Assembly: GCA_022652545.1 (NCBI GenBank)
Contig: JALCRM010000007.1
Span: forward strand, 1-64,000
Direction of reading: 5' to 3'
Origin: Lachnospiraceae bacterium
GTDB taxonomy: Bacteria > Bacillota > Clostridia > Lachnospirales > Lachnospiraceae
Length of the DNA: 64,000 nt
This document shows positions 880-28,514 of this stretch, one piece after another. Position 1 is the first letter of the stretch, and each line of letters opens with the position of its first letter. Made by a program: the position numbers and the translations under genes. The notes beneath the pieces were generated by a model. It was not told where the DNA came from, made no database searches, and saw only the letters and a list, made by a program, of their open reading frames with translations.

Positions 880-935
880 GGTGCTGGCGCACCGGCTGCC
901 CATTTCGGAGGATCTGAGGATCCTCCTCATGGAGG
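880..935 (+). promoter_or_regulatory. Two-hairpin leader element, copy A (before sufB)
   Basis: Hairpin 1 is GGTGC-TGGC-GCACC (880-893). A 13-nt linker (894-906) ending TTC follows. Hairpin 2 has perfect 8-bp arms GGAGGATC (907-914) and GATCCTCC (919-926) around TGAG. Then come TCAT and the Shine-Dalgarno GGAGG (931-935), five bases before the ATG at 941. CCTCC can pair with GGAGG on either side. The same architecture recurs at 28048 and 28454. Function is not known to me; I infer control of translation. Confidence 0.75.
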
Positions 936-940
936 AAAAG

Positions 941-2341
941 ATGGCGAAAAAACCGAAGATCGCGGAAGTCGACCGCAGCCTGTATGATTTTAAGGATGAC
1001 GAGTCCGACTTTTACAGAATAAAGGCGGGCCTCACTGAGGAGATCGTGAACCAGATCTCCGACGAGAAGCACGATCCTGACTGGATGAGGGCCGAGCGCC
1101 TGGAATCCCTGAAAATATACAACAGCCTCAGAGTGCCGGACTGGGGGCCTTCCATAGAGGGGCTCGACATGGACAGCATCGCTACCTACGTGCGGCCCAA
1201 CACCGGCATGAAAGGCAGCTGGAACGAAGTGCCGGAGGAGATCAAGAGCACCTTTGAAAAGCTCGGTATCCCGCAGGCGGAACGCGAAAGCCTGGCGGGT
1301 GTCGGCGCGCAGTATGATTCGGAGCTGGTCTATCACAACGTGAAGGAAGAAGTGGCCGCACAGGGCGTGGTATATACCGACCTGGAGAGCGCGCTGACCG
1401 GAAAATACGAGGATATGGTGCGCACGCACTTTATGAAGCTCGTTCCGCCTACCGACCACAAGTTTGCGGCGCTGCACGGCGCGGTGTGGTCCGGCGGCTC
1501 GTTCGTTTATGTCCCGGCGGGCGTGCACGTGGAGATTCCGCTGCAGTCCTATTTCAGGCTGAACGCAAAGGGCGCGGGCCAGTTTGAGCACACGCTGATC
1601 ATCGTCGACGAGGGTGCAGACCTGCACTTTATCGAGGGCTGTTCGGCTCCTAAATACAACGTGGCCAACCTGCATGCCGGCTGTGTGGAACTGTATGTCG
1701 GCAGAGGCGCGCACCTGCGCTATTCGACGATCGAGAACTGGTCCAAGAACATGTACAACCTGAATACGAAGCGGGCCCTGGTGGAGGAAGGCGGCAAGAT
1801 GGAATGGGTCTCCGGCTCGTTCGGTTCCCACACGTCCTACCTGTATCCGACCACCATCCTCAAGGGTGACGATTCCCATTGTGAATTTACCGGCATCACC
1901 TTTGCCGGTGCTGGACAGAATCTGGATACGGGCGCCAAGATGATCCATATCGGGGAGCACACGTCCTCCTACATCAATACGAAGTCCATCTCCAAGAGCG
2001 GCGGGATCAGCACTTACCGCAGCGCCGTGCAGATCATGTCCGGTGCACACGGGGCAAAAGCTTCCGTATCCTGCGCTTCCCTGATGCTGGATGCCGAGTC
2101 GCGCTCCGATACGATCCCGGCTATCGAAGTGGACACGGACGACGCGGATGTCGGACACGAGGCCAAGATCGGCAGGATCAGCGACGAAGCGGTGTTTTAC
2201 CTGATGAGCCGCGGCATTGCCGAGGCAGAAGCGCGCGCCATGATCGTGAGCGGCTTTGCGGACACAGTCAGCAAAGAGCTGCCGCTGGAGTACGCCGCGG
2301 AAATGAACAATCTGATCAAGATCGAAATGGAGAACGGCTGA
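941..2341 (+). CDS. sufB: SufB, Fe-S cluster scaffold subunit
   Basis: Scaffold subunit of SufBC2D on which the nascent Fe-S cluster forms. The body is a right-handed beta-helix; family landmarks such as FVYVPAGVHVEIPLQSYFR and the C-terminal stretch GHEAKIGRISDEAVFYLMSRG are clear. I start it at ATG 941 (MAKKPKIAEVD, 466 aa) because GGAGG sits five bases upstream. An in-frame ATG at 929 and GTG at 881 lie inside the hairpin leader and are less likely. The stop overlaps the sufD start by one base (TGATG), so the two are probably translationally coupled. Confidence 0.96.
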   Translation: MAKKPKIAEVDRSLYDFKDDESDFYRIKAGLTEEIVNQISDEKHDPDWMRAERLESLKIYNSLRVPDWGPSIEGLDMDSIATYVRPNTGMKGSWNEVPEEIKSTFEKLGIPQAERESLAGVGAQYDSELVYHNVKEEVAAQGVVYTDLESALTGKYEDMVRTHFMKLVPPTDHKFAALHGAVWSGGSFVYVPAGVHVEIPLQSYFRLNAKGAGQFEHTLIIVDEGADLHFIEGCSAPKYNVANLHAGCVELYVGRGAHLRYSTIENWSKNMYNLNTKRALVEEGGKMEWVSGSFGSHTSYLYPTTILKGDDSHCEFTGITFAGAGQNLDTGAKMIHIGEHTSSYINTKSISKSGGISTYRSAVQIMSGAHGAKASVSCASLMLDAESRSDTIPAIEVDTDDADVGHEAKIGRISDEAVFYLMSRGIAEAEARAMIVSGFADTVSKELPLEYAAEMNNLIKIEMENG

Positions 2342-3495
2342 TGAGCGATCTCATTATGATAAACAATCTTCCATGTCTTACATGGAACCGCCTGGATCTC
2401 AACCGGGCGGCGGTCGACAGCAGGGATCTGGAGGTCAATACAGAGGTCCCGGTCGAGTTCCTGACACTTCCGGACGGCGTCAGCTGCCGGCCCGTTACCG
2501 GTGCAGCGGCGGCAAAACTGCTCGCACGCACGCCCGTACAGGTACCCGAGCGCGTACAGGCCGGCAAAGTCCCGATCTATCACCCGCAGCGGTTTGCGAC
2601 GGGGCTCGGCGGGGACTTTGACAGACTGGCATCCGCGGCGGCAGATGCCGCGGGGAAAAAAGTACAGCTGCTGGAAGTCAGACCCGGGGCGGCACCTGCG
2701 CGGCCTATCCTCTGGCACACCGAATACCACGACGGCAACCGGGCGTTGTCCCGGCAGATCATCCACGTCGGGGAAGGCGCTTCGCTGACGCTTGTGATGG
2801 ATTTTGTCTCCGGGGCGGAGGACGGCGGGATGGCCGGTGTTTCGACCGGCGTGATCCTCGACAGGGGGGCCAGGCTGGATCTTTGCCGCGTGCAGATGCT
2901 GGGAAGCTCGTATGTGCATTTTGACGACATGGGCGCGTCCCTCGGCGAAGAAGCCGCAATGACGTACCGCCAGCTGGAACTGGGCGGGAGCAGGACTTAT
3001 GCGGGAGCGCAGGCGGAACTGATCGGCAGGCGCAGCTCCTTTACGGCCAGGATGGGCTACTTTGCAACGGAAACGGCGAAGATGGACATCGGCTATAACG
3101 TGGTACAGCGCGGCCGCCGCACAAAGAGCGACATGACCTTTGACGGCGCGCTGGCGGGGCACGCGGCCAAAACATTCCGCGGCACGATCGATTTTAGAAA
3201 CGGTTCCGCGGGTTCCACCGGCGACGAGCAGGAAAATGTCCTGCTGCTTTCCCCTGCGATCGTCAACAAAACGATCCCTGTCATCCTCTGCGAAGAGGAA
3301 GATGTACAGGGCCGGCACGGAGCGACCGTCGGCAGGCTGGCCGATGATATCCTGTTCTACTTCGGAACGAGAGGCGTCGGCATGCGGGAAGCGCAGGAAA
3401 TGATGGTCACGGCGCGCCTCGGCGCCGTTGCGAGGGAGATCCCGGACGAGGATCTGCGCAGCCGTATCGATGCATTTATCAGCGGAAAAATCTGA
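2341..3495 (+). CDS. sufD: SufD, Fe-S cluster assembly subunit
   Basis: SufB paralogue that completes the SufBC2D complex. The 384-residue protein has a variable N-terminus and a conserved C-terminal half, including RTKSDMTFDGAL and GRHGATVGRLADDILFYFGTRG, the SufD counterpart of the SufB C-terminus. It starts one base inside the sufB stop. A 47-bp gap leads to sufS. The gene order C-B-D-S-U differs from the sufCDSUB order of Bacillus. Confidence 0.94.
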   Translation: MSDLIMINNLPCLTWNRLDLNRAAVDSRDLEVNTEVPVEFLTLPDGVSCRPVTGAAAAKLLARTPVQVPERVQAGKVPIYHPQRFATGLGGDFDRLASAAADAAGKKVQLLEVRPGAAPARPILWHTEYHDGNRALSRQIIHVGEGASLTLVMDFVSGAEDGGMAGVSTGVILDRGARLDLCRVQMLGSSYVHFDDMGASLGEEAAMTYRQLELGGSRTYAGAQAELIGRRSSFTARMGYFATETAKMDIGYNVVQRGRRTKSDMTFDGALAGHAAKTFRGTIDFRNGSAGSTGDEQENVLLLSPAIVNKTIPVILCEEEDVQGRHGATVGRLADDILFYFGTRGVGMREAQEMMVTARLGAVAREIPDEDLRSRIDAFISGKI

Positions 3496-3542
3496 CCGCT
3501 CCGGGAAGCCCGCTGCGGGCTGCCCGGGAGAAAGGTGTTACC

Positions 3543-4754
3543 ATGTCATCTTACCGTGAGGACTTCCCGATTTTCAAGGGAAGCGATGTGATCTATTTTG
3601 ACAATGCAGCCACTTCCCAGAGGCCGCGCCAGGTCATCGAGGCGATGCGCTCCTTCAATGACAGCTGCAACGCCAATCCGCTGCGCGGCCTGTACGACTG
3701 GAGCGTCCGGACGACCGACGCCTACGAGGCGGCCCGGCACGCGGTGGCGCACTTTATCGGAGCGGAGCGCGACTGCGAGATCGTATTTACGAGGAATACG
3801 ACCGAATCGATCAACCTCGTCGCCTACAGCTGGGGCCTTGCGAATCTCCACGCCGGGGACGAGATCGTGCTCACCGTTTCGGAGCACCACTCCAACATTC
3901 TGCCGTGGCAGATGTGTGCGCGGCGCACCGGCGCCAGGCTGGTCTACATGGAGTGTGAGAAGGACGGCACCCTGCCGGCTTCGGAATATGAAAGCAAGAT
4001 CACGGACCGGACAAAACTGGTGGCAGTCGCCGAAGTTTCCAATGTGCTGGGTGCCGTGAACCCGATCCGGGAGATCGCGGATGTCGCGCATAGGAAGGGC
4101 GCGGTCGTACTGGTGGACGGCGCGCAGAGCACGCCGCACATGCCGGTCGACGTGAAAGCGCTCGGGGCGGATTTTTATGCGCTGTCCGGGCACAAGATGC
4201 TCGGTCCTATGGGGATCGGGGCTCTTTACGGCAGGATCGCCCTGCTCGAGGAGATGCAGCCGTTCCTGACCGGCGGGGAGATGATCGAAACGGTGACCAG
4301 GGAGAGCGCCACTTTTGCGCCGGTGCCGGAGAAATTCGAAGCCGGTACGGTGAATGCGATGGGCGCCGTGGGGCTGTCCGCAGCGATCGATTACCTGAAC
4401 GGCGTCGGCTTCGATACGATCATGCGGAAGGAACGGGACCTGACAGGCCTGCTGCTCGATCGCATGCGGAAAATGCCGGAAGTGACGGTCTACGGCTCAG
4501 AGGATCCCGCAAAACACTGCGGCATCGTGACATTCAACATCGAGGGGTGCCATCCGCACGACGTGGCTTCGGTGCTCGACTCCGAACACATCTGTATCCG
4601 AGCGGGACACCACTGCGCACAGCCCCTCATGAAATATCTGGGCGTATCGTCCACGGCGCGCGCAAGCCTTTATTTTTACAACACGGAAGAAGAAGTGGAA
4701 CGTTTTGCGGATGCACTGACCAAAGTAAGGGGGTGGCTCGGCTATGGAGCTTAA
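3543..4754 (+). CDS. sufS: SufS-type cysteine desulfurase
   Basis: PLP enzyme that takes sulfur from cysteine as a persulfide and passes it to SufU. The 403 residues are normal for group II NifS/SufS proteins. The PLP lysine is in SGHKMLGPMG (Lys218) and the catalytic cysteine in RAGHHCAQPLM (Cys358). The N-terminal YFDNAATSQRP motif fits. It overlaps sufU by 11 bp, which suits a desulfurase-acceptor pair. Confidence 0.96.
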   Translation: MSSYREDFPIFKGSDVIYFDNAATSQRPRQVIEAMRSFNDSCNANPLRGLYDWSVRTTDAYEAARHAVAHFIGAERDCEIVFTRNTTESINLVAYSWGLANLHAGDEIVLTVSEHHSNILPWQMCARRTGARLVYMECEKDGTLPASEYESKITDRTKLVAVAEVSNVLGAVNPIREIADVAHRKGAVVLVDGAQSTPHMPVDVKALGADFYALSGHKMLGPMGIGALYGRIALLEEMQPFLTGGEMIETVTRESATFAPVPEKFEAGTVNAMGAVGLSAAIDYLNGVGFDTIMRKERDLTGLLLDRMRKMPEVTVYGSEDPAKHCGIVTFNIEGCHPHDVASVLDSEHICIRAGHHCAQPLMKYLGVSSTARASLYFYNTEEEVERFADALTKVRGWLGYGA

Positions 4755-5280
4755 GCAGCTGTACAGAGAGATCGTGAACGAACACAACCTGCATCCTTCG
4801 CACAAAAAGGATATCGCCGATCCGACGATGGTCCTGAACGGCGTGAACCCGAGCTGCGGCGACGACATAACCCTGCAGCTTTCCGTAAAGGACGGCAGGA
4901 TCGCCGACGCTTCCTTTAACGGCAGCGGCTGTGCGATCTCGCAGGCCTCGGCAGACATGATGTGCGACCTGATCATCGGGAAACCCCTGGAGGAGGCAAA
5001 ACAGCTTTCAGCCGATTTCATGGGCATGATCCGGGGCACGGCAACGCAGGAACAGATCGAAAAGCTGGATGAGGCGGCGGCGCTGTCTGATATCGCGCAC
5101 ATGCCCGCACGCGTGAAATGCGCGGTCCTCGGATGGCGCACGATGTCGGAAATGGTGGACAAGCTGAACGCGGAGGGTCCGCAGGAGGCCACGGCTGCCG
5201 GGAGCAGCGAGTGCGGCGCCTGCGCGGACAACAGTGCCGCGGTATGCAAGAAAAACTGCACCAGCAGACGCTGCGGCTGA
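4744..5280 (+). CDS. sufU: SufU sulfur acceptor with extra Cys-rich tail
   Basis: Zinc-dependent sulfurtransferase that accepts persulfide sulfur from SufS. The zinc and acceptor residues are in place: NPSCGDD (Cys38, Asp40), GSGCAIS (Cys63) and VKCAVLGW (Cys126). From memory SufU is about 145-150 residues; this one has 178. The extra C-terminus follows an Ala/Gly-rich linker and has five cysteines (157, 160, 168, 172, 177) in the last 22 residues. I do not know a role for that tail; it could bind metal or carry sulfur. Last gene of the suf run. Confidence 0.92.
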   Translation: MELKQLYREIVNEHNLHPSHKKDIADPTMVLNGVNPSCGDDITLQLSVKDGRIADASFNGSGCAISQASADMMCDLIIGKPLEEAKQLSADFMGMIRGTATQEQIEKLDEAAALSDIAHMPARVKCAVLGWRTMSEMVDKLNAEGPQEATAAGSSECGACADNSAAVCKKNCTSRRCG

Positions 5281-5304
5281 GATGTCCTGCTGTGCGTGAT
5301 GTAG

Positions 5305-5393
5305 TATAATGACACTGTCAGCAAAGGCAGCGGCGAACAGCCGGAAAATGTCAGACGACCATCGGGAGTGGGATGTCAGATTCAAATGTGACA
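5305..5393 (+). promoter_or_regulatory. TATAAT -10 and clustered TGTCA/TGACA half-sites
   Basis: A TATAAT (5305-5310) lies in the gap before the regulator gene. Its last base begins the perfect palindrome TGACA-C-TGTCA (5310-5320). More half-sites follow: TGTCA at 5349, TGTCA at 5374 and TGACA at 5389, the last two an inverted pair spanning the start codon. No good -35 is visible. The layout fits autorepression by the TetR-type protein downstream. Confidence 0.5.
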
Positions 5394-5915
5394 AAAAATG
5401 CGCTGGCCGCATCCATGAAGAAACTGATGAAGGAGGAGCCGTTCGAAAAGATCAGCGTCTCCGACATCTGCAGCGACTGCGGGATCAACCGCAAGAGTTT
5501 CTACTACCATTTCAGGGACAAGTATGACCTGGTGAACTGGATCTTTTATGTGGGCTTTGTGGGAGAGATGGACCTGAACAGCTATCGCACGGGCTGGGAC
5601 TGGATCGCCGACATCTGCATCTTCTTTTACAGGGAACGCGATTTTTACCGCTGTGCCCTGGAAATAGAAGGCCAGAACTCCTTCCGCGACTACCTGATCG
5701 ATACCGTCCGCCCGGTGGCGGAGTTTTTCCTGCGGGACAGCTTCCCGGAGGAAGGGAGCCGCGAATTTCAGCTCACGTTCGTGATCGATGCCCTGCTGAC
5801 CTCCATTGTCCGCTGGCTGTCCGGAGGATACGATACAAAAACGCACAAATACAACGCCGAGGAGTTTGTTTCGGAAATCCATGAGATCGTCCGCCGCATA
5901 GGAGAAAAGAAATGA
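5373..5915 (+). CDS. TetR-family transcriptional regulator
   Basis: The 180 residues begin with a TetR-type helix-turn-helix domain: EEPFEKISVSDICSDCGI, then NRKSFYYHFRDKYDLVNW, where the recognition helix and the following YYHF are typical. The C-terminal half is helical and would bind a ligand I cannot name; it resembles the DhaS-like subgroup. The start ATG follows GGGAGTGGG. It has its own -10 and a palindrome overlapping it, so I infer autoregulation. Next to suf, it could sense redox or metal state, but nothing in the sequence proves this. It is convergent with the next gene, 18 bp apart. Confidence 0.88.
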   Translation: MSDSNVTKNALAASMKKLMKEEPFEKISVSDICSDCGINRKSFYYHFRDKYDLVNWIFYVGFVGEMDLNSYRTGWDWIADICIFFYRERDFYRCALEIEGQNSFRDYLIDTVRPVAEFFLRDSFPEEGSREFQLTFVIDALLTSIVRWLSGGYDTKTHKYNAEEFVSEIHEIVRRIGEKK

Positions 5916-5933
5916 TACGGACGGCGGGCGGTT

Positions 5934-7013
5934 CTATTCGTTGTTGACCGTCGACACGTCGATCGCGGGCATGACTTCACAGAGAGCATCCATCAGGGGC
6001 AGGCTGAAGGGAAAAACTTCGCCCGCCTTTTCCTTGGGGTGAATGATCCTGCCGTCAGCACCGATCTCGAGAAGCGTACGGTGGTTGGCCATTTTGTTGA
6101 ACAGTGCGGCAACATCGCCGTAATAGTCGATGATGAACGTGGGGCTTTCCTGCTTGAAACGCGATTCGTAGCAGAGCCTGGTCACCCGCCGGATACCTTC
6201 CTCGGAGACCTGGTCGCTGGCGACCGTCAGGAAAAAGGCCGCTTCCGTGGAGATGACGTTCTTCATGGCGCTGCTGAGCGCTTCCGACTGGTCTTCATCC
6301 GTTGAATAGGTCATATAGAGCCCGAAGAGGATCTTCTGGTCGCGCAGGAGAGGCGCAGTGAGTGCCGTTTCCGGGTCTTCCGCAGGCAGCATCGTCATGG
6401 TGTTGCGGCACAGCTTGAGGAGCTGGATCTGCGCGGCGGTCAGCCGGCCGGTGGGGCGGCAGATCACAAAGGCACAGTCAGGATTCTGCTGGCACAGCTC
6501 GAGCAGCTCGTAGGAGTCGGAAGGAGTACCGACCTCACGGATATAGTAGGAAAAAATGCCGAGCTTCTGTCCGGCTTTCACCAGGGAACGGATACGGTCG
6601 ATCGTCAGCGAGGAAGGATCCTCCTGCGCGGTGCTGTCGCGGTGGTAGCGCAGCATCAGTGTGGGAGGCAGCATGTGCCCCGTCTGCTTTTCTTCTTCCC
6701 GTATTCTCCGCGCGCCGTAGGTCCAGGAATCGTAGCCCATGTTGACGCCGAATTCCTTGATCGAGGCGTGGTCCGTGTTTTTGAGCAGATTGGCCATCAT
6801 ATCATAGTAGCTGCTGTTTTCATTTTCCAGCAGTTCCTGCATGATGCCGAAGACTTCTTCCTGAAAACGGCTCTTGGAAAACTGTTTTCCGAGATCAGCC
6901 AGCCTTCGCACACTGCGCTTGGGATCTTCCTCCATGCTGCGTATGCCGTGTGCCACGGTGGATTCGATCATTGCCCGTGTAATGGTGTAAGTATCCACTT
7001 TTGATCTCTCCAT
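5934..7013 (-). CDS. Radical-SAM-like protein lacking cluster cysteines
   Basis: I start it at MERSKVDTY (359 aa); an upstream frame to 7346 runs through promoter-like DNA. The order of segments follows, from memory, a clostridial radical SAM/SPASM family: a helical N-terminus, then PPTLMLRYHRDST where the family has PW-ILxDPTxxCNLxCxGC, then LVKAGQKLGIFSYYIREVG (family: GKELGVY-YxYTGGEP), then the CAFVICRPTGRLT strand. Near the end IIDYYGDVAALFN and LLEIGADGRIIHP replace the stretch with GCxAGGR and GDVEPC. All cluster-binding cysteines are therefore absent. It is probably not a radical SAM enzyme today; a regulatory or structural role is a guess. Confidence 0.6.
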   Translation of the reverse strand: MERSKVDTYTITRAMIESTVAHGIRSMEEDPKRSVRRLADLGKQFSKSRFQEEVFGIMQELLENENSSYYDMMANLLKNTDHASIKEFGVNMGYDSWTYGARRIREEEKQTGHMLPPTLMLRYHRDSTAQEDPSSLTIDRIRSLVKAGQKLGIFSYYIREVGTPSDSYELLELCQQNPDCAFVICRPTGRLTAAQIQLLKLCRNTMTMLPAEDPETALTAPLLRDQKILFGLYMTYSTDEDQSEALSSAMKNVISTEAAFFLTVASDQVSEEGIRRVTRLCYESRFKQESPTFIIDYYGDVAALFNKMANHRTLLEIGADGRIIHPKEKAGEVFPFSLPLMDALCEVMPAIDVSTVNNE

Positions 7014-7052
7014 TCCTGTTTTCCGGTAAAATTCCATCTTGTTTTGGGAGTT

Positions 7053-7081
7053 ATTATAGAACAATCCGCGCGGTGCAGAAA
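7053..7081 (-). promoter_or_regulatory. Promoter of the radical-SAM-like gene
   Basis: Read leftward: a poor -35 TTTCTG (7081-7076), 17 bp, then a perfect TATAAT (7058-7053), about 40 bp before the chosen start at 7013. This supports that start over the longer reading frame. Confidence 0.5.
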
Positions 7082-7257
7082 GCAACAAAAATGCCAAACT
7101 GTCCGCAGAGCGCGGGGTCGTTTGCGCCCTCACTGCCGCTGCAGCGGGACATTCGGCGCTTCCGCTGCGGATACAGGCGAAAAAACGTTCCGGAAATGAT
7201 ATAATTCTGCTGTACATCTGCAGGCTGCAGGGCAGCCGTGCGGAAGGGGGCCACAGA

Positions 7258-8037
7258 ATGGAAGATGAAGAAAAGATCAGTAAACTCGGAGAGATCATCG
7301 CCGGCAGCAGTAATATCGTGTTCTTCGGCGGGGCAGGAGTGTCCACGGAGAGCGGGATCCCGGATTTCCGGTCGGTGGACGGCCTTTACAACCAGAAGTA
7401 TGATTACCCTCCGGAAACGATCCTCAGCCACACGTTCTATGAGAGAAAACCGGAAGAGTTTTTCCGTTTTTACCGCGATAAACTGCTGGGCCCTCTGATG
7501 GACCCGAAGACAAAACCCAACAAGGCGCACATGACTCTGGCCAAATGGGAGAAGGAGGGCAGGCTGAAGGCAGTCGTGACGCAGAATATCGACGGCCTGC
7601 ACCAGGCGGCCGGCTCCCGGAATGTCATGGAACTGCACGGCAGCGTCATGCGCAATACCTGCGAGCGCTGCGGGAAGCACTACAACGGCATGGAAGCCGT
7701 CAGAATGATCGCACAGAGCCGGGAGGTCCCGGTATGCGGAGAATGCGGCGGCAGGATCAAACCCGATGTCGTGCTTTACGAAGAAAGTCTGGATATGGAT
7801 ACGATGGAGAGCGCGGTCTCCTTCATACGGAACGCGGATGTGCTCATCATAGGCGGCACCTCGCTGGCCGTTTATCCGGCGGCGGGGCTCATCGACTATT
7901 ACCGGGGCAATAAACTGATCCTCATCAACAAGAGCACCACCCCGAGGGACGGGCAGGCAGATCTTGTGATCGCCATGCCCATCGGCGAGGTACTCAGCGC
8001 CGCGGATGCGGCGGCGGGCCTGAAAGGCCGGGCATAG
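7258..8037 (+). CDS. cobB: SIR2-family NAD-dependent protein deacylase
   Basis: Cytosolic sirtuin that removes acyl groups from lysines using NAD+. All landmarks are present: GAGVSTESGIPDFRS (NAD site), TQNIDGLHQAAG, catalytic His in ELHGS, four zinc cysteines in two pairs (CERC and CGEC), and the GGTSLAVYPAAGL loop. The 259 residues are normal for bacterial class U/III sirtuins. GGGGG precedes the ATG. A TATAAT at 7200-7205 may be its -10. The stop directly abuts the next ATG, so it is co-transcribed with the DUF951 gene. Confidence 0.94.
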   Translation: MEDEEKISKLGEIIAGSSNIVFFGGAGVSTESGIPDFRSVDGLYNQKYDYPPETILSHTFYERKPEEFFRFYRDKLLGPLMDPKTKPNKAHMTLAKWEKEGRLKAVVTQNIDGLHQAAGSRNVMELHGSVMRNTCERCGKHYNGMEAVRMIAQSREVPVCGECGGRIKPDVVLYEESLDMDTMESAVSFIRNADVLIIGGTSLAVYPAAGLIDYYRGNKLILINKSTTPRDGQADLVIAMPIGEVLSAADAAAGLKGRA

Positions 8038-8226
8038 ATGGATATAGCGGCAGGAGACATCGTGAGGATGCGCAAGAAACATCCCTGCGGAAGCGAAGAA
8101 TGGAAGGTACTGCGCGCCGGTGCGGATTTCCGCCTGGAGTGCATGGGCTGCGGACATCAGGTCATGCTGCAAAGGCGCACACTGGAGAAAAGCCTGCGCG
8201 GGATCGTGAAGGCACAGGACAGGTAG
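8038..8226 (+). CDS. DUF951 family small protein
   Basis: 62 residues matching the DUF951 pattern as I remember it: DIVRMRKKHPCGSEEWKVLRAGADFRLECMGCGHQVMLQRR. The conserved HPCGS and CMGCGH cysteines suggest a small zinc site. Such genes often stand just before rpsF in Firmicutes, as here. The function is unknown. It begins on the base after the sirtuin stop. Confidence 0.85.
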   Translation: MDIAAGDIVRMRKKHPCGSEEWKVLRAGADFRLECMGCGHQVMLQRRTLEKSLRGIVKAQDR

Positions 8227-8240
8227 TATAAGCTTCGCAG

Positions 8241-8262
8241 CACGCGGCAGCGCGTGTGTTTT
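8241..8262 (+). terminator. Weak terminator after the DUF951 gene
   Basis: Perfect 6-bp stem CACGCG/CGCGTG around GCAG, followed by TGTTTT. It lies 15 bp after the DUF951 stop and before the rpsF promoter, so a partial terminator is likely. Confidence 0.5.
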
Positions 8263-8284
8263 GGCTGCCCACCAGCATTTTCCC

Positions 8285-8313
8285 TTGAAACTGCGGCAGC
8301 GATATGTTATTAT
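8285..8313 (+). promoter_or_regulatory. Promoter of rpsF-ssb-rpsR
   Basis: TTGAAA (8285-8290), 17-bp spacer, TATTAT (8308-8313): a sigma-A type promoter. It gives a leader of about 75 nt before rpsF. Confidence 0.75.
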
Positions 8314-11748: not shown

Positions 11749-11796
11749 CCGCAGCATCGGCGCTTGCGTGCCGGCTGCCGGTGCAGTGCACAATTT

Positions 11797-11818
11797 AAAA
11801 TCCGTGACACCGGATTTT
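11797..11818 (+). promoter_or_regulatory. Hairpin before rplI
   Basis: Perfect 8-bp stem AAAATCCG/CGGATTTT around TGACAC, 30 bp before the rplI ATG. It could be a weak attenuator between gdpP and rplI or a ribosomal-protein leader structure. The T-run is part of the arm itself. Confidence 0.45.
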
Positions 11819-11848
11819 GAATTCAATGTTTATTTCATGGAGGGAAAG

Positions 11849-13682: not shown

Positions 13683-13683
13683 T

Positions 13684-20987: not shown

Positions 20988-21215
20988 TCATAAATCCATA
21001 CGGTAACAATCCGGGCAGTGCCCCGCAAGGGCGAATCCTGCCATTTCCGATTTTCTGACGATACGTTTCATATCCGGTCGGCTGCGCGCCGGACTGCGGG
21101 CGAATCCCACGAAGAATTTCCCGACGGCTTTGGAAGGCGGCAGCCCCATCACGTCTGTACAGGCACCGTCTGTCAGTTTTTCCTGCGACAGGACGGCAGC
21201 CCGTGTCTTACCCAC
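20988..21215 (-). CDS. Possible small protein or gene remnant
   Basis: A 75-codon leftward frame with a GTG start and CAGGAA just before it. Third positions are fairly G+C-rich (about 61% by my count), a little like the coding genes nearby. The stretch TDGACTDVMGLPPSK faintly recalls the C-terminal part of Maf proteins, but no Maf N-terminus is found upstream, where a stop lies three codons away. I do not recognise it; it may be chance or a decayed gene. Confidence 0.22.
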   Translation of the reverse strand: MGKTRAAVLSQEKLTDGACTDVMGLPPSKAVGKFFVGFARSPARSRPDMKRIVRKSEMAGFALAGHCPDCYRMDL

Positions 21216-21362
21216 TTCCTGTCAATCTGAGATCAAATCTTTAGGGCACATGAAATCCGTTTCAAAGTCTGAGGACCCCGCCTTGTGTGGCAACGGATGA
21301 CGTGTGCCCTGTCTGTGCGGCGGTACGGGCTGCCCTTGCCTGTCGCACACGCGGAGAATACA

Positions 21363-21371
21363 TGCTATAAT
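21363..21371 (+). promoter_or_regulatory. Extended -10 promoter of the GH18 gene
   Basis: TGC-TATAAT at 21363-21371, 49 bp before the ATG at 21421. No convincing -35. Confidence 0.6.
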
Positions 21372-21420
21372 AATACGAAAAATTCCGGGTTCGGAGAAAA
21401 ACTTACAAGGGAACGGGGCT

Positions 21421-23436
21421 ATGAGCGGCAGGGATTACGGTTATTTTGATGACGAAGACGAACTGGACGCAGCCGAAGAAGACACCGGCTATACGAAGGA
21501 CAGACGGCAGACCCGGGACAGCGGGTACGGCCGGAACAGTTCCGGAAGCGGGCGCAGTTCAGGCGGCAGCGGCAGCAGAAACGGGCGCAGTTCCGGGAGC
21601 AGAGGCGGATATGGCTCCGGGAGCAGCGGCAGCTGGGCAAACGATTCCCGCAGCCGCGGCACGGCCGGGGGACGCAGTACCGGAGGCGGCTACGGCCGGC
21701 GAACGGACAGCTATGGCAGCAGCGGCCGGCGCAGAAAGAAAAAGAGAGGCTTTCCCTGGCAGCTGGGTGTCGTGCTGCTCATCTTTGTCCTGCTGGGAGC
21801 TTTTGCGCTGACGCTGTACCAGAAGCGGTATTCCTATTCGACGGTACAGGCTGACCTGAACTCCTATTTCGGGGAGACGGACGACGCCTCCGTGGTGCCG
21901 GTCATGCTGCAGAACGACAAGAGCGATACCACTGTCAGGCTGTTTGACGGGACGCCCTACATGAGCATCGATGCCGTGCAGAGCATGCTGAACAGGCGCT
22001 TTTATTATGGGAAGGAAGACAATGTGGTGCTCTACTGCCTGCCGGACGATGTGGTGACAACGACGATCGGCACCAGTGACTGGTCGACGGGAAGCGGCAC
22101 CAGCACCGAAAAATACATGCCGGCGCGCATGGACGGCGAAACCCTGTATCTTGCACTCGACTATGTAAAGAAGTTCACGAATTTTTCGTATCAGCTGTAT
22201 ACGGATCCCAACCGCATGCAGATCTATACGCAGTGGGGAGATGTCAACACCGCGATCGTGTCGAAGAAGACGGGGCTGCGCACGACCGGCGGCGTGAAGA
22301 GCGATGTCCTGACCTATCTTGAGAAGGGTGCCAAGGTCGAGGTCCTGGAGACCATGGAAAACTGGTCCAAGGTGAAGGCCGACGGCTGCTTTATCGGCTA
22401 CGTGGAAAACAAGGTCCTGAAGGACCAGGCAAGCGAGACGCAGACACCGGTCACGGATGCACTGAATCAGACGTTTACCCCGAACCTGCTCGGCACCAAG
22501 GTCAACATGGCCTGGCACAATGTGGCGAGTACGGGAGGAAACGACACGTATGCGGCCTATATGGCAAACACCAAGTCGCTGAATGTACTTTCCCCGACCT
22601 GGTATCCGCTGCAGGATGACGCCGGGGATCTGGACAGCTACGCCAGGCAGGACTACATGGATCAGGCGCATGCCGCCGGTCTGAAGGTGTGGCCGGTCGT
22701 GGACAACTTCAACAATCCCGACGTGAATCACAACAATTTCCTGGCAAAACAGGCTTCGCGTACGCATGTGATCGACCAGCTCATGGACGAGGCGTCGAAG
22801 TATGGTTTTGACGGCATCAACGTCGACTTTGAACAGATCGACCCGGATTACGGACAGGATTTCATCGAGTTTGTGCGCGAACTTTCGATCCGCTGCCGCA
22901 AGGCCAAGCTCACGCTGTCCGTGGACAACTACGTCACGTATGATTTCAATGACTATTACCATATGGATGAGCAGGCGGATTTTGCCGACTATGTCGTCAT
23001 CATGGGGTATGACGAGCACTACGCGGGCGACAAGGAAGCAGGCAGCGTCGCGGACATCGACTATGTAAAGTACGGCATTGAACGCGCCCTGCAGGAAGTG
23101 CCGAAGGACCAGCTTATCAACGGCATTCCGTTCTATACAAGGCTCTGGATCGAGGACGAGTCCGGCCTGACGTCCCAGTCGCTGGATATGACGCAGGCGG
23201 CGCAGTTCTGCACGGATCACGGGCTGACGCCGAAGTGGGATGAAAAGACCTGCCAGAACTACGTGGAGGCCACGGAAGGCAGCAAGACCTACAAGATGTG
23301 GCTGGAGGACGCGGAGTCCATCCAGGCCAAGCTTTCCGTGATGCAGGCAGAGGGCATCGCGGGTGTGGCGGAATGGAAGCTGAGCTTTGAGACGCCGGAT
23401 ATCTGGGACGTGATCGCCAGCTATATGGCACAGTGA
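21421..23436 (+). CDS. Membrane-anchored GH18 glycoside hydrolase
   Basis: 671 residues from MSGRDYGYFDDEDE. Residues 1-108 are a low-complexity Ser/Gly/Arg-rich stretch ending RRRKKKRG, then one membrane segment (LGVVLLIFVLLGAFALTLY). Outside come a copper-amine-oxidase-like/stalk region, an SH3-like stretch (KTGLRTTGGVKSDVLTYLEKG), and a C-terminal GH18 barrel with the catalytic motif FDGINVDFEQID. This architecture is like YaaH/CotE-type enzymes that act on peptidoglycan or chitin-like glycans. The stop overlaps the next ATG by 4 bp. Confidence 0.88.
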   Translation: MSGRDYGYFDDEDELDAAEEDTGYTKDRRQTRDSGYGRNSSGSGRSSGGSGSRNGRSSGSRGGYGSGSSGSWANDSRSRGTAGGRSTGGGYGRRTDSYGSSGRRRKKKRGFPWQLGVVLLIFVLLGAFALTLYQKRYSYSTVQADLNSYFGETDDASVVPVMLQNDKSDTTVRLFDGTPYMSIDAVQSMLNRRFYYGKEDNVVLYCLPDDVVTTTIGTSDWSTGSGTSTEKYMPARMDGETLYLALDYVKKFTNFSYQLYTDPNRMQIYTQWGDVNTAIVSKKTGLRTTGGVKSDVLTYLEKGAKVEVLETMENWSKVKADGCFIGYVENKVLKDQASETQTPVTDALNQTFTPNLLGTKVNMAWHNVASTGGNDTYAAYMANTKSLNVLSPTWYPLQDDAGDLDSYARQDYMDQAHAAGLKVWPVVDNFNNPDVNHNNFLAKQASRTHVIDQLMDEASKYGFDGINVDFEQIDPDYGQDFIEFVRELSIRCRKAKLTLSVDNYVTYDFNDYYHMDEQADFADYVVIMGYDEHYAGDKEAGSVADIDYVKYGIERALQEVPKDQLINGIPFYTRLWIEDESGLTSQSLDMTQAAQFCTDHGLTPKWDEKTCQNYVEATEGSKTYKMWLEDAESIQAKLSVMQAEGIAGVAEWKLSFETPDIWDVIASYMAQ

Positions 23437-24524
23437 TGAAGACAGAATACATTTCCATGACGGAAGAAAACATAGACCGGCAGGGCATCGAACGTGCCGG
23501 TGAGATCCTGCGGGCCGGCGGCCTGGTGGCATTTCCCACCGAGACCGTGTACGGACTCGGCGGGGACGCGCTGAATCCGGAATCCTCGAAGAAGATCTAC
23601 GCGGCCAAGGGCAGGCCTTCCGACAACCCGCTGATCGTACATATCTGCCGCCTGGAAGATACGGAAGCGATCGCGGAAAAGATCCCTGAGACATACTACA
23701 GGCTGGCAAAGGCATTCTGGCCGGGACCTCTGACCATCATTCTGAACAAGAGCAGCCGCGTACCCGTAGAGACGACGGGCGGACTCGGTACAGTGGCGAT
23801 CCGCTTTCCGAGCAACCGCATCGCGCACGCACTGATCGAAGCGGAGGGCGGCTTTATCGCGGCACCCTCTGCCAACCGTTCCGGACGGCCGAGCCCCACG
23901 CTGGCAAAATACTGCAGGGAAGATCTGGACGGCCGCGTGGAGATGATCATCGACGGGGGACAGGTCGGTATCGGCGTGGAGTCCACGATCGTGGATCTCA
24001 CGGAGGGCAGGCCTGTTATCCTGCGCCCGGGCCGCATCACGAAGGAAATGCTGGATGCGGAGCTCGGCAGCGTGGACGTGGACCGCACGATCCTGTCGGC
24101 GGATTCCGGCATCAGGCCGAAGGCTCCCGGCATGAAATACAGGCACTATGCGCCGAAGGGCGATCTGAAGATCGTCTGCGGCAGCAGGGACAATGTCGTT
24201 GCCTACATCAATGAAGCGGCGGCTGCGGCACATGCGGCCGGCGGGAAGACGGGCGTCATCGCGGCGGAGGACACCTGTGCCATGTACAGGGCGGATTCCG
24301 TAAAATGTGCGGGCAGCAGGCAGGACGAGGAAACGGTCGCAAGAGAGCTCTTCCGTATCCTGCGCGAGTTTGACGACGAGAACTGCACGGTCATGTTTTC
24401 CGAGGCATTTGACGACAGCGGCATAGGCATGGCGGTCATGAACCGCCTCACCAAGGCGGCGGGGCACCAGATCGTGGATGCCGACGCATACAGACAGAAG
24501 GAGAATGGAGGTGTAGGTGTATGA
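23433..24524 (+). CDS. ywlC: L-threonylcarbamoyladenylate synthase (Sua5 type)
   Basis: Makes threonylcarbamoyl-AMP from threonine, bicarbonate and ATP for the t6A37 modification of tRNA. The YrdC domain covers about 15-210, with GLVAFPTETVYGLGGDAL, the KGRPSDNPLIVHI loop and the SANRSGRPSPT motif. A Sua5 C-terminal domain follows the linker APGMKYRHYAPKG. 363 residues fit the long form. ATGA overlaps join it to the genes on both sides. Confidence 0.94.
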   Translation: MMKTEYISMTEENIDRQGIERAGEILRAGGLVAFPTETVYGLGGDALNPESSKKIYAAKGRPSDNPLIVHICRLEDTEAIAEKIPETYYRLAKAFWPGPLTIILNKSSRVPVETTGGLGTVAIRFPSNRIAHALIEAEGGFIAAPSANRSGRPSPTLAKYCREDLDGRVEMIIDGGQVGIGVESTIVDLTEGRPVILRPGRITKEMLDAELGSVDVDRTILSADSGIRPKAPGMKYRHYAPKGDLKIVCGSRDNVVAYINEAAAAAHAAGGKTGVIAAEDTCAMYRADSVKCAGSRQDEETVARELFRILREFDDENCTVMFSEAFDDSGIGMAVMNRLTKAAGHQIVDADAYRQKENGGVGV

Positions 24525-24946
24525 TAGCGATCGGTTCGGACCATGGCGGCTTTGACCTGAAGACATCCGTGATTGCCCATCTGGAAGCAAGGGGCATGGA
24601 ATACAGGGACTTCGGATGTTTTGACAAAAAATCAGTGGACTATCCGCAGTATGCGAAGGCAGTTGCGCAGGCTGTGGCTTCCGGCGAGGCGGAAAAGGGC
24701 ATCGTGATCTGCACGACGGGGATAGGCGTCTCCATCGTCGCAAACAAGGTGCACGGGATACGCTGTGCGCTCTGCAGCGAGGTCTCCACGGCCAAGCTGA
24801 CGAGACTCCACAACGATGCGAACGTGCTTGCCATGGGAGGCGGAATGATCGGTCCCAAAGCGGCCGATGACATTGTGGATACTTTTCTGGACACGCCGTT
24901 TTCGGGCGAGGAAAAGCATAAAAGAAGGATCTCCGAAATAGAATAA
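24521..24946 (+). CDS. rpiB: Ribose-5-phosphate isomerase B
   Basis: Interconverts ribulose-5-P and ribose-5-P in the pentose phosphate pathway. 141 residues with IAIGSDHGGFDLK at the start and the catalytic CTTGIGVSIVANKVHGIRCALC (active-site Cys in the CTTGIG loop); HNDANVLAMGG follows. The start overlaps the preceding stop. Some family members act on other sugar phosphates, so the substrate is inferred. Confidence 0.93.
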   Translation: MIAIGSDHGGFDLKTSVIAHLEARGMEYRDFGCFDKKSVDYPQYAKAVAQAVASGEAEKGIVICTTGIGVSIVANKVHGIRCALCSEVSTAKLTRLHNDANVLAMGGGMIGPKAADDIVDTFLDTPFSGEEKHKRRISEIE

Positions 24947-24998
24947 AGCCGGCAGGACAGATTTCACAGCGCCGTAAAGGCGCAGAAAAGAGGAAGCA

Positions 24999-25628
24999 AT
25001 GGGAAAAGTAGTGATCATGGACCACCCGCTCATCCAGCACAAGATCGGTTATATCCGCAGGAAATCCACCGGGACCAAGGATTTCCGCGAAACGGTCGGA
25101 GAGATCGCCATGCTGATCTGTTTTGAGGCGACCCGCAGTCTGGAACTCCAGGATGTGGAGATCGAGACGCCCATCGCAAAGACGACGGCCAAGGAACTGA
25201 AGGGCAAGAAAATGGCGATCGTGCCGATCCTGCGCGCCGGACTCGGGATGGTAGACGGTATGCTGACGCTCATTCCCACTGCAAAGGTCGGCCATATCGG
25301 GCTGTATCGCGACCCGGATACACTGAAGCCCGTCGAATATTACTGCAAGCTTCCGAAGGACTGCAGCGAGCGCGAGGTCTTCGTGGTGGATCCCATGCTG
25401 GCCACCGGCGGTTCGTCCGTGGCAGCCATCGAGATGCTCAAGCACCACGGCTGCAAAAACATTCATTTCATGTGCATCATTGCGGCGCCGGAAGGCATCA
25501 AGGCCCTGACGGCGGCACACCCCGACGTGGATGTATACGTGGGGGCCGTGGATGACCATCTGAATGAAAACGGCTATATCGTACCCGGCCTCGGCGACGC
25601 GGGAGACCGTATCTTCGGCACAAAGTGA
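24999..25628 (+). CDS. upp: Uracil phosphoribosyltransferase
   Basis: Converts uracil and PRPP to UMP in pyrimidine salvage. 209 residues, normal length. It has [24 protein letters not shown], the [12 protein letters not shown] loop, the PRPP-binding [22 protein letters not shown], and an aromatic/acidic C-terminus with [31 protein letters not shown] hairpin (24969-24983) lies just before the ribosome site. rpiB, upp and the dCMP deaminase form a nucleotide-linked run. Confidence 0.96.
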
Positions 25629-25659
25629 GCGGGAACCAAACGCGGATCGGAGGCAGTTC

Positions 25660-26148
25660 ATGTCAGGCAAACGCGCAGATTACATCACCTGGGACGAGTA
25701 TTTCATGGGCGTTGCAGCCCTGGCCGGCATGCGTTCCAAGGATCCGAACACACAGGTCGGCTGCTGCATCGTCAGCGATGCGCACAAGATCCTGTCCATG
25801 GGGTACAACGGTTTCCCGCTCGGCTGTTCCGACGAGGATTTTCCGTGGGAACGCGAGGGCGAGGACAGCCTGCATACAAAGTATCCATATGTAACGCACA
25901 GTGAACTGAACGCGATCCTGAATTTCCGCGGGGGCAGTCTCGAAGGCTCTTCTATTTACGTGACGCTTTTTCCCTGCAACGAATGCGCCAAGGCGATCAT
26001 CCAGTCCGGCATCCGCAGGGTGGTCTACCGGAGTGACAAGTACGCGGATTCGGAAAGCACGATAGCGAGCAAGAAAATGTTCGATGCGGCCGGGGTGGCA
26101 TATGTGCAGTACCAGCCTACCGGGCGCAGGATAGAGATCGATCTGTAA
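25660..26148 (+). CDS. dCMP deaminase family protein
   Basis: Zinc-dependent deaminase, probably dCMP to dUMP. I start it at MSGKRADYITWDEYFMG (162 aa) with GGAGG upstream. Zinc and catalytic motifs: THSELNAIL (His and catalytic Glu) and LFPCNECAKAIIQ (two zinc Cys). RSKDPNTQVGCCIV is also conserved. It follows upp by 31 bp. A ComEB-like role in competence is possible but is not needed to explain it. Confidence 0.9.
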   Translation: MSGKRADYITWDEYFMGVAALAGMRSKDPNTQVGCCIVSDAHKILSMGYNGFPLGCSDEDFPWEREGEDSLHTKYPYVTHSELNAILNFRGGSLEGSSIYVTLFPCNECAKAIIQSGIRRVVYRSDKYADSESTIASKKMFDAAGVAYVQYQPTGRRIEIDL

Positions 26149-26184
26149 AGGAAAGCGGCAGCGAAGTTCCGCCGGGGAGTCTGT

Positions 26185-27369
26185 TTGAATAAAAGTACGG
26201 CAGGCAAAACAGGAGTGAAAGCGGCGGCTCTTTTCGTGGCCGCGGCAGTGGCGGCGGCAGCGATGCCGTCTTCTGTCAGTGCGACCTCAGCCGAAACACA
26301 GAAACAGCTGGAAGAGGCGCAGCAGCAGAAGGAGGACACCGAGAATGCGCTCGGCGAGAACCAGCAGGACATCAATTCGCTGAGCGGGCAGAAAAGCGGA
26401 CTGGAGGGGAAGCTCAGCACGCTGAATACGCAGCTGACCGAAGCAGGGCAGAACCTGACCGACATCGAAGCCAGGATCACGGACAAAAACAGCGAGATTG
26501 AAAAAACAAGCAGCGAGCTGGACGCGGCGACCGCCAGGGCGGACCAGCAGTACGCGGATATGAAGAAGCGTATCCAGTTCATGTACGAGAAGGGGCGGGG
26601 AACGTATTTCCTGGAGATGCTGCTTTCTTCCGGCAGCTTTACGGAATTTCTGAACCGCCAGGACTACATCCAGGATCTTTCGCAGTACGACCGCAGGATG
26701 CTGGAGGAGTACAAGCAGACAAAACAGGATATTTCAGACAGGAAGGCGGAACTGGAGCAGGAGCGCACCGATCTTGAAGACCTGAAGTCGCAGGCAGAGG
26801 CGGAACAGGCGAGGGTATCCTCGCTCGTCAGCCAGACCTCCGGCAGCATCAGCGCGACGGACAGTGAGATCGCGGGGGCACAGGCCAATGCCGATGCGCT
26901 GCAGAACCAGCTGGAGACACAGAACGCGCAGATCTCCGCACTGGAGGCGCAGCTCGCGGAGGAACGCCGTCTGGAAGCTCTGTCCAAGGCTTCCGTATGG
27001 AGAAACATCTCACAGGTCACCTTTGCGGACGGCGACCGGGAGCTGCTTGCCGAACTGATCTACAGCGAAGCTGGCAACCAGCCCTACGAAGGACAGCTGG
27101 CTGTAGGGTCGGTCGTGATCAACCGCGTACTGAGCGGCGCATTTCCGGATACGGTGGTGGGTGTCATTTACCAGGCTAACCAGTTCGCACCCGTAGCAGA
27201 CGGGCACCTGGCGCTGGCGCTGGCAGAGAAGAGAGCGACGCCTTCCTGCTACCAGGCGGCGGATGCGGCTATGTCGGGACAGACGAATGTTTCGGACTGT
27301 ATCTTTTTCCGCACGTGGATCCCCGAGATCACGCCGCGCTATACCATCGGCGCCCATATATTCTACTGA
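26185..27369 (+). CDS. Secreted coiled-coil cell-wall hydrolase (SleB type)
   Basis: 394 residues with a TTG start and GGGGAG five bases upstream. A signal peptide (about 1-35, ending SSVSATSA) leads to a long coiled coil of Gln/Glu/Asp/Leu heptads (about 38-265) like NlpC/EnvC-type activators. The C-terminal domain is hydrolase_2: LAELIYSEAGNQPYEGQLAVGSVVINRV and ANQFAPVADG. It likely acts on peptidoglycan as in SleB/CwlJ proteins. Its 3' end overlaps the convergent DUF402 gene by 7 bp. Confidence 0.9.
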   Translation: MNKSTAGKTGVKAAALFVAAAVAAAAMPSSVSATSAETQKQLEEAQQQKEDTENALGENQQDINSLSGQKSGLEGKLSTLNTQLTEAGQNLTDIEARITDKNSEIEKTSSELDAATARADQQYADMKKRIQFMYEKGRGTYFLEMLLSSGSFTEFLNRQDYIQDLSQYDRRMLEEYKQTKQDISDRKAELEQERTDLEDLKSQAEAEQARVSSLVSQTSGSISATDSEIAGAQANADALQNQLETQNAQISALEAQLAEERRLEALSKASVWRNISQVTFADGDRELLAELIYSEAGNQPYEGQLAVGSVVINRVLSGAFPDTVVGVIYQANQFAPVADGHLALALAEKRATPSCYQAADAAMSGQTNVSDCIFFRTWIPEITPRYTIGAHIFY

Positions 27370-27848
27370 TCGCAGAGTTCTTCGATCGGACGCATGAGGG
27401 ACGGAAACTGTCTGCTGTATATGATTTCCAGGAGCCTGCTGCAGTTGCGGAGGCTCCTTTTTATACATTCGGCATCGATGAGGCCGCGGTCGAATGCATC
27501 GGCCAGCTCGTCGAGGTCGACGACCTTGAGGCGGCCGTCGGGATAGACGATCACGTCGGCAAGCAGGTCAGTCACGAGCAGGCTGTTGTTCTCATGATCC
27601 CAGTCGTAGTCGACGATATCGCAGTACCAGTACATCAGTTTCCCGTCTGCGGAGATGAATTTGCTGACTTTGATCCCGCGTTTCAGGTAATAGCAGGAAT
27701 AGCCGCGGGAGAGTTCTCTTTTGGGATGCAGTGCCTTCCAGGCAGTGACGATGACATCTCCGTCGCAGCGCAGGACCACATCATCTTTCAGTTCCACGCA
27801 CTCCTCCGGGATCAGACGCTTACGGTAAAGCTTCGGACAGTTATCCAT
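27363..27848 (-). CDS. DUF402 family protein
   Basis: 161 residues. The DUF402 core is clear: LMYWYCDIVDYDWDHENNSLLVTDLLADVIVYPDGRLKVVDLDELADAF. Some DUF402 proteins are nucleoside di/triphosphatases or linked to translation, and the conserved acidic residues here (CDIVDYD, TDLLAD, DLDEL) would suit metal binding; the exact substrate is unknown. It runs against sleB, with 7-bp 3' overlap and no terminator between them. Confidence 0.85.
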   Translation of the reverse strand: MDNCPKLYRKRLIPEECVELKDDVVLRCDGDVIVTAWKALHPKRELSRGYSCYYLKRGIKVSKFISADGKLMYWYCDIVDYDWDHENNSLLVTDLLADVIVYPDGRLKVVDLDELADAFDRGLIDAECIKRSLRNCSRLLEIIYSRQFPSLMRPIEELCDQ

Positions 27849-27966
27849 GGTGCGGCTCCTGTATTGCCCTGCCTGAGACAGGGCGTTTCCGGGATTCGGA
27901 TCGTATAAAAGAGATCATAGGCGCGGCTGTATGAAAAGTCAATTTTTCAAAGAACTCCTGATTTGA

Positions 27967-27995
27967 TTGAATTGTACCCGCCGTTAAGGTAAAAT
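27967..27995 (+). promoter_or_regulatory. Promoter of the V-ATPase operon
   Basis: TTGAAT (27967-27972), 17 bp, TAAAAT (27990-27995). It lies 116 bp before ntpF, so the transcript has a leader of about 110 nt that includes leader copy B. Confidence 0.72.
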
Positions 27996-28009
27996 GCTCT
28001 ATACATGCG

Positions 28010-28034
28010 GCAATGTTTTTTTGCCCGTTTTTTC
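28010..28034 (+). other. Short stem with T-runs in the V-ATPase leader
   Basis: GGCAA and TTGCC can pair around a T-rich loop, and CGTTTTTT follows. It looks like a weak intrinsic terminator just inside the leader and could act as an attenuator ahead of leader copy B. Confidence 0.35.
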
Positions 28035-28047
28035 TTGTTTTGCATGA

Positions 28048-28103
28048 GGTGCTGATGCACCGCCTGCCCACTTCGGAGGATATGAAGATCCTCCTCATGG
28101 AGA
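28048..28103 (+). promoter_or_regulatory. Two-hairpin leader element, copy B (before ntpF)
   Basis: Hairpin 1 GGTGC-TGAT-GCACC (28048-28061), 13-nt linker ending TTC, hairpin 2 arms GGAGGATA (28075-28082) and GATCCTCC (28087-28094) around TGAA with seven outer pairs. TCAT and GGAGA (28099-28103) follow, then ATG at 28111. Compared with copy A, the loops and single linker bases differ while the pairing is kept, apart from one lost closing pair in hairpin 2. Confidence 0.75.
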
Positions 28104-28110
28104 AAAAGAC

Positions 28111-28422
28111 ATGGTAAAGGAAACGATCGACAGAATACGGGAGGCTGAGACGGCGGCAGCAAAAAAAGAAAAAGAAGCCGCGCAGAAAGCCGATGAACTG
28201 GTGCGTGCCGCGAAGGAAAACGCAGATGCGCTCGTCGCGTCCCGCACAAAAGAAGAAAAGCAGGCCGGAGAGAAAGCGCTGAAGGAAACACAGGCCGAAG
28301 GGGAGCGCGCCATGCAGGAAGCCATGGCCGGTACCGACGGCGAACTGGAGGAACTGGAAGCGCAGGCCCGGGCGAAGATGCCGGAGGCTGCAGCTGCAGC
28401 TTTGAAGGCGCTGACCGAGTAA
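28111..28422 (+). CDS. ntpF: V-type ATPase peripheral-stalk subunit (G/H type)
   Basis: 103 residues, almost all one charged helix: KKEKEAAQKADELVRAAKENADALVASRTKEEKQAGEKAL. Such a small coiled-coil protein at the head of a V-ATPase operon is the peripheral-stalk partner of subunit E, called NtpF in Enterococcus hirae or AhaH in archaea. It is recognised mainly by position and composition. Leader elements stand both before and after it, so its expression may be tuned apart from ntpI. Confidence 0.8.
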   Translation: MVKETIDRIREAETAAAKKEKEAAQKADELVRAAKENADALVASRTKEEKQAGEKALKETQAEGERAMQEAMAGTDGELEELEAQARAKMPEAAAAALKALTE

Positions 28423-28453
28423 GGGTACGGCGCACGGGAACTGTTGCGGCAAA

Positions 28454-28514
28454 GGCGCCGGAAAACGGTGCCGGCCGCCTGATTCGGAGGATCCGGGGAT
28501 CCTCCTCACGGAGG
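28454..28514 (+). promoter_or_regulatory. Two-hairpin leader element, copy C (before ntpI)
   Basis: Hairpin 1 is a different 7-bp stem GGCGCCG/CGGTGCC with one G-U around GAAAA (28454-28472). The 13-nt linker (28473-28485) again ends TTC. Hairpin 2 arms GGAGGATC (28486-28493) and GATCCTCC (28498-28505) surround CGGG. TCAC and GGAGG (28510-28514) follow, and ATG is at 28522. Hairpin 1 keeps its place while its bases change. Confidence 0.72.

Follow-up and report, generated by a model that had tools for sequence, protein, structure and literature searches.

Bacterial miniature repeats are described as altering gene expression or fusing into reading frames (passages of PMC10969869). BOX elements of Streptococcus pneumoniae are short, modular and dispersed, vary in module number and are regarded as non-autonomous and parasitic (passages of PMC3049150), and the Rickettsia palindromic elements are short and mobile, occur in many unrelated genes and leave these genes usable (passages of PMC10969869). 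On these passages (PMC3049150, PMC10969869), the two are the closest kinds to the repeat reported here, a structured leader found in a 64,000-nucleotide stretch of a Lachnospiraceae bacterium (hereafter the window: positions 1 to 64,000 of contig JALCRM010000007.1, assembly GCA_022652545.1), where it stands before sufB, rplI, ntpI and one further gene.

The present repeat and BOX are alike in being short, modular and dispersed, with modules lost or multiplied. In the cited passages of PMC3049150, BOX copies lie at gene 3′ ends, BOX-encoded frames lack good Shine–Dalgarno sequences (SDs), and no placement between SD and start codon is mentioned, whereas in the present repeat the end of the unit is the SD of the gene. 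Nearly half of the Rickettsia palindromic elements are within reading frames and are read in frame (passages of PMC10969869), whereas the present repeat lies between SD and start codon. In the main text of that review of miniature inverted-repeat transposable elements (MITEs), the terms “Shine-Dalgarno” and “start codon” do not occur (PMC10969869). MITE-like repeats are likewise short, numerous and without a gene of their own, with filled and unfilled sites in relatives, but the present repeat has, by eye, no terminal inverted repeats: its left end reads RGTTTGAAAG, its right end bears the SD, and its hairpins are internal. Repetitive extragenic palindromes and bacterial interspersed mosaic elements (REP/BIME), as well as IS200/IS605-derived palindromic elements, insert beside a short target and depend on the Y1 transposase, and their targets are not known to be SDs. 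They resemble the present repeat as hairpin-based non-autonomous repeats, but its own genome and five other carriers are without a Y1 match. With riboswitches of 5′ leaders it shares covarying hairpins beside the SD and a possible SD-sequestering fold; unlike them it has no Rfam match and no common target function, and it is absent at the compared orthologous genes.

We consider the leader probably to be a mobile repeat, modular and non-autonomous, which inserts between an SD (plus spacer) and the start codon and regenerates the SD. A unit of about 100–110 bp would enter between the SD and spacer of the host gene and its start codon. Because the right end of the unit is a complete SD plus spacer, the gene would stay translatable, retaining a working ribosome-binding site with proper spacing, and the target would be recreated; the regenerated SD could then take another unit, giving tandem arrays. 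The family is found here in one genus; what is new about it is that it inserts behind the SD and ahead of the start codon and carries an SD of its own. Among the papers listed by searches of the open PubMed Central library, none has a title or abstract start describing such an element.

Copy number, placement and distribution of the repeat

The unit is modular and consists of three hairpins (H1, H2 and H3), a short linker, the SD and a spacer; it is short (about 100–110 bp), and the units that were read contain no gene. A pattern for perfect H3 occurs at eight places in the own genome, and BLAST finds 69 pieces. A covariance model of the own form (R1), trained on 31 copies, gives at least 112 matches at E ≤ 1, the genome copy counts being lower bounds with 150 of 2657 first-look R1 candidates scored. 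The working set comprises the top 96 matches (E ≤ 0.0123); the remaining 16 are weaker and were set aside, and several of them overlap or lie next to better ones. Instead of the three copies known to the sequence-only reading, the genome holds at least 96 copies, spread over 77 sites (61 with one unit, 13 with two and 3 with three, giving tandems at 16 of 77).

The placement of the copies is far above chance. In sense orientation, 74 of the 96 stop 4–12 nt 5′ of a start codon (72 at an ATG opening a frame, 2 at GTG/TTG), and 19 are upstream units of tandems with the next unit directly 3′; three are unassigned (one before a further unmodelled unit by eye, one with an internal deletion and no start found, one weak). 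At random positions in the same DNA, an ATG-opened frame begins within 15 nt in 787 of 8400 cases (9.4%), against 72 of 96 for the copies. With 93 of 96 copies directly before a start codon or another unit, the leader is not the plain dispersed repeat that had been named as a refuting outcome. The distance between the carried SD and ATG varies across copies. By eye, some copies are without H3 or H1, and many lack 5′ parts to differing extents; the SD end is complete in nearly all of them. At one locus, an internal deletion brings the loop of H1 up against the segment that precedes H3, apparently via a shared GATG.

Sister species of the genus retain H1 and H2 and have a different H3, GGCAAAACCGC-ATTC-GCGGATTTTGCC, followed by TCAGCGAGG with the SD. 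A model of this sister form (R2) was run on 62 species of the genus and, with stricter filters, on a sample of 397 family genomes from 334 genera. The further copies in related genomes that the sequence-only reading called for are present: R2 matches 15 of the 62 species, between 1 and 75 times in each (the lone weak matches in G214, G241 and G250 are marginal), and R1 matches 7 of 41 sampled species of the genus, the own one included. No other genus was matched by R2 among the 397 family genomes; R1 gave one weak match in another genus (G090, E 0.003) among 200 genomes. In pattern searches, genome contigs yielded no match for the own H3 and 55 stretches for the sister H3, and a phage vehicle was discarded after two exact patterns gave no match in viral contigs. 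The named carriers are the metagenome-assembled genomes RUG285, RUG433, RUG554, RUG830, RUG12688 and RUG14180, as well as UBA7012 and Lachnoclostridium sp. Marseille-P6806; the RUG carriers are presumably of rumen origin. The RUG285 loci contain 26 H3 cores, including groups of six and four identical 67-base stretches, which suggests, at the sequence level, a recent spread.

Filled and unfilled sites in close relatives

Orthologous sites were compared in two close species, G205 (RUG554) and G253 (RUG12688). Among 16 genes queried, 14 were aligned: 11 are filled in G205 only, one in G253 only and two in both (one of them cut by a contig end). Four further sites (MTKHV, MKLHF, MGVTK and MAEEN) are filled in both species, MAEEN with two units versus one. 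Overall, 12 of the 18 compared sites are filled in one species only. Six of these 12 have readable junctions (MEPEE, MKIAI, MNIQE, MIYNF, MNITV and MNMKK), and all six show the same arrangement: to the left of the unit lie the SD and spacer of the host gene, and the unit's own SD and spacer come just before the ATG. The unit starts with (A/G)GTTTGAAAG or similar, its TTG standing in place of the ATG. A small duplication is seen at the unfilled MIYNF site.

Counted over H1 matches, tandems included, an SD-like tetramer lies 4–9 nt 5′ of the unit in 17 of 20 own cases (one own non-match is an unrelated coding match) and in 32 of 41 sister cases, against a chance level of 455/6480 (7.0%). SD-like motifs thus flank the unit on both sides, and the right one belongs to the unit, which bears on the question of target-site duplication. 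We infer that each unit moves as one discrete element and that the SD is what it targets.

A second hairpin module, GTGCCGC...GCGGCAC-GGGGTATA, was noticed at G205 and G253 loci; it also has an SD-like end and can precede either the unit or a start codon. Ten exact matches occur in 5 of the 62 species, and none with the reversed control.

Copies in the window and the pairing of their hairpins

The three leaders described by the sequence-only reading lie where it had placed them, with R1 E values in the window of 1.4e-18 (copy A), 1.5e-11 (B) and 4.6e-14 (C); A and C belong to the training alignment, and B stands outside it. Copy A, the most complete of the three, runs on the forward strand, like all features given below, as H1-H2-H3-TCAT-SD into the sufB ATG. 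Its H1 (837–870; GTTTGAAGGTGC...GCACTTTCAAAC with apical TGAT, from sequence reading and H1 covariation) had been overlooked. H2 (872–899) opens the R1 match 872–935, which together with the sequence reading also places H3 (907–926; GGAGGATC-TGAG-GATCCTCC) and the carried SD GGAGG (931–935). sufB (SUFBD_core, Pfam PF01458, 2.1e-83) extends from the ATG at 941 to 2341, and its frame is also open from a GTG at 881, inside copy A. By direct reading, an SD-like GAGG at 828–831, belonging to the presumed original start site of sufB, lies 7 nt 5′ of the codon-like TTG of the unit (839–841); copy A is outside the H1-match list used for the left-SD count, since its H1 begins TTGAAG.

The window holds a fourth, diverged copy in addition to the three reported earlier: copy D (11751–11843, R1 E 1.3e-6), composed of H2, a longer diverged H3 and an SD, between a gdpP-like gene and rplI (ATG 11849; Ribosomal_L9 by Pfam). 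This longer H3 variant, found at three loci besides 11751–11843, has an inner hairpin around AAAATCC/GGATTTTGAATT, as if a second palindrome had entered H3. No H1 is seen in copies B and C. Copy B (28042–28103) has a partial H2, H3 (28075–28094) and the SD GGAG (28099–28102), and precedes a gene at 28111–28422 (ATG 28111) that has no Pfam match and was called ntpF solely from its position in the V-ATPase operon. Copy C (28446–28514) has H2, H3 (28486–28505) and an SD (28510–28514), and precedes ntpI, V-type ATPase subunit I (28522–30549; Pfam PF01496, 1.8e-29). Its first stem, earlier taken as unrelated, is actually the same H2, in which changed bases compensate each other (GCGGC/GCCGC) and the loop is longer. 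Rfam gave no match at gathering thresholds for the window and none at E ≤ 0.1 for ten loci, in agreement with the earlier impression that no known riboswitch fits.

Covariation was judged against 500 shuffles in an own-form alignment (A1) and a sister-form alignment (A2). Standard pairs fill 98.8% of the pair cells of A1. Cells changed on both sides number 34 in A1 (9.3 in shuffles), 11 in A2 (2.4) and 28 in H1 (8.1), each above all 500 shuffles. Both-side changes affect 9 of the 14 pairs of H1, and its NGAT loop is kept, mostly as TGAT or CGAT; the own H3 arms occur as GGAGGATC/GATCCTCC, GGAGAATC/GATTCTCC, GGAGAACC/GGTTCTCC, AGAGAACC/GGTTCTCT and GAAGAATC/GATTCTTC. H1, H2 and H3 all covary, and the proposal of a structured leader tied to SD and start codon holds in this respect. 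Pairing therefore matters, judging from the alignments, but activity in the form of RNA does not follow, because the copies are interrelated and palindromes can stay paired at the DNA level.

Target genes, rival explanations and implications

The sequence-only reading suggested a regulatory RNA class, perhaps a riboswitch, for Fe-S and V-ATPase genes. The own targets are functionally mixed: sufB, rplI and ntpI are confirmed by Pfam, and from their N-termini we take the other downstream genes to include asd, pta, thrS, trpS, pyrI, aroQ, argB, murD, ddl, coaX, gcvH, nuo and many transport and surface genes. We compared 75 own target proteins (73 distinct genes) with 77 sister ones (55 distinct), from fetched loci only and representing part of the sister copies. 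Leaving aside N-termini encoded by the unit and a partial match over 44 residues (38.6%), no own–sister pair exceeded 33% identity; the homologous pairs (two ABC components, a SufB/SufD pair, an MntP-like pair and the 44-residue partial) are all distant. By eye, the unit is absent from the sufC–sufB junction in 24 of 24 other species (four with partial matches excluded) and from the ntpF–ntpI junction in 12 of 12 (one partial match excluded), and R2 has no match at these junctions of other species. Around sufB, three species have three unit positions: 5′ of the gene (own), just 3′ of it (G205) and about 1.4 kb upstream (G226). The idea of a regulatory class is not supported: the targets are scattered in function and, in the comparison made, are not the same from one species to another, and the presence and number of units vary at orthologous sites of close relatives. 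The riboswitch or regulon reading was rejected on these target sets and orthologous sites, which fit a mobile repeat.

In a broader form, the leader could be a new cis-regulatory RNA, riboswitch-like or protein-binding, in which H3 and a hairpin that sequesters the SD, CCTCC-TCAT-GGAGG, would alternate to control a regulon. The covariation of H1–H3 agrees with it, and the H3 3′ arm is able to pair with the SD in 99.4% of the pair cells of A1 and in 94.1% of those of A2, there as CCTC-AGC-GAGG. Yet this SD hairpin has no double changes and the switch is not demonstrated; targets are scattered in function and unshared between species as far as compared, orthologous sites differ in whether a unit is there, and the 397 sampled family genomes gave no R2 match in another genus. 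Moreover, the predicted SD accessibility is the same as for other genes (0.379 in 61 leaders, 0.391 in 54 control genes, p = 0.89), by which SD sequestration as a default state was rejected. We therefore regard this kind of regulation as improbable. When the H3 5′ arm is removed in silico, the accessibility falls from 0.359 to 0.147 (mean of 48 of the 61 leaders), a drop partly built in as the complementary arm remains. In the mobile-repeat reading, H3 probably keeps the new SD free, since GGAGG could otherwise be paired with the 3′ arm of H3 (CCTCC), and we infer a roughly neutral effect on translation. An intrinsic terminator was dismissed, no T run following H3. Translation of the leader itself, with the original SD starting a short peptide at the TTG or ATG of the unit that is read through the hairpins and coupled to the gene, seems highly improbable as the general explanation, though some units may have it. 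A TTG does stand at start-codon distance from the left SD, and reading from it runs without a stop into the frame of the gene in 17 of 23 sister units and in 6 of the 12 own ones; four of the other six own units stop within 1–4 nt of the gene ATG, as in translational coupling, but any gene beginning ATGA gives a stop at +4. In the third H1 type, the ATG is in frame in 2 of 10 gene-preceding units with stops scattered from −68 to +1011, and with the variable own SD–ATG spacing the frame is not kept; a leader peptide was rejected for these inconsistent frames and stops. Where the 111-nt sister unit is open from its TTG and in frame (the same 17 of 23), automatic annotation may wrongly lengthen the protein by 37 N-terminal residues.

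The remaining rival is a structural repeat of the BOX/REP type, which inserts anywhere or spreads by recombination at short SD homologies, its placement coming from selection only. Such a repeat would account for modularity (H1, H2 or H3 is missing in some copies, in crude classes), for tandem copy-number change between relatives and for the SD-sized direct repeats at junctions, and pneumococcal BOX is modular with variable module number as well (passages of PMC3049150). We find it rather unlikely, since 93 of 96 copies stand directly 5′ of a start codon or another unit and no copies were seen slightly further upstream, where they should be harmless; this last argument is weakened by the share of candidates scored (150 of 2657) and by the SD tail in R1. 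Insertion between SD and start codon remains the preferred explanation, and several observations weigh against it. R1 under-samples copies without an SD or far from genes, and selection alone could clear copies whose SD is poor. In the MNIQE and MNMKK pairs, the site without a unit itself resembles the unit tail, and a unit may equally well have been lost as gained; no left host SD is seen at era, and at MEIAV, the upstream DNA is not comparable. Further pair types, one of five covariation measures, are not above shuffles (A1 500/500, A2 298/500), and template switching where the DNA forms hairpins can keep palindromes paired. No mobilising gene was found: the Y1 transposase (PF01797) has no match in the own genome, G205, G229, G237, G243 and G251, an absence limited by several incomplete assemblies (the own genome is 81% complete); the remaining 9 of the 15 carriers have it. 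Mobilisation by IS200/IS605 or REP machinery was accordingly set aside as unsupported, Y1 being absent from 6 of 15 carriers and present in 9. Y1 transposases occur in 41 of the 62 species of the genus; G248 has 37 Y1 matches, yet one unit-model match.

A bolder version, which we put forward tentatively and with some doubt, is a mobile class that targets the translation start itself. It would recognise SD and spacer, insert ahead of the start codon and restore the SD with its own 3′ end, perhaps through an RNA-templated route. This route is possible because many copies are without 5′ parts while the 3′ end is nearly always whole. Such loss resembles that of 5′-truncated retrocopies, and it is equally expected if selection guards the SD.

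Leaders that are structured, covarying and linked to start codons need not be regulatory, and this one, by its covariation and position, could have passed as a riboswitch candidate. If it is instead a mobile repeat that supplies the SD, it could break or create translational coupling. The repeat would then be a portable ribosome-binding site, able to rewire the translation of operon genes singly.

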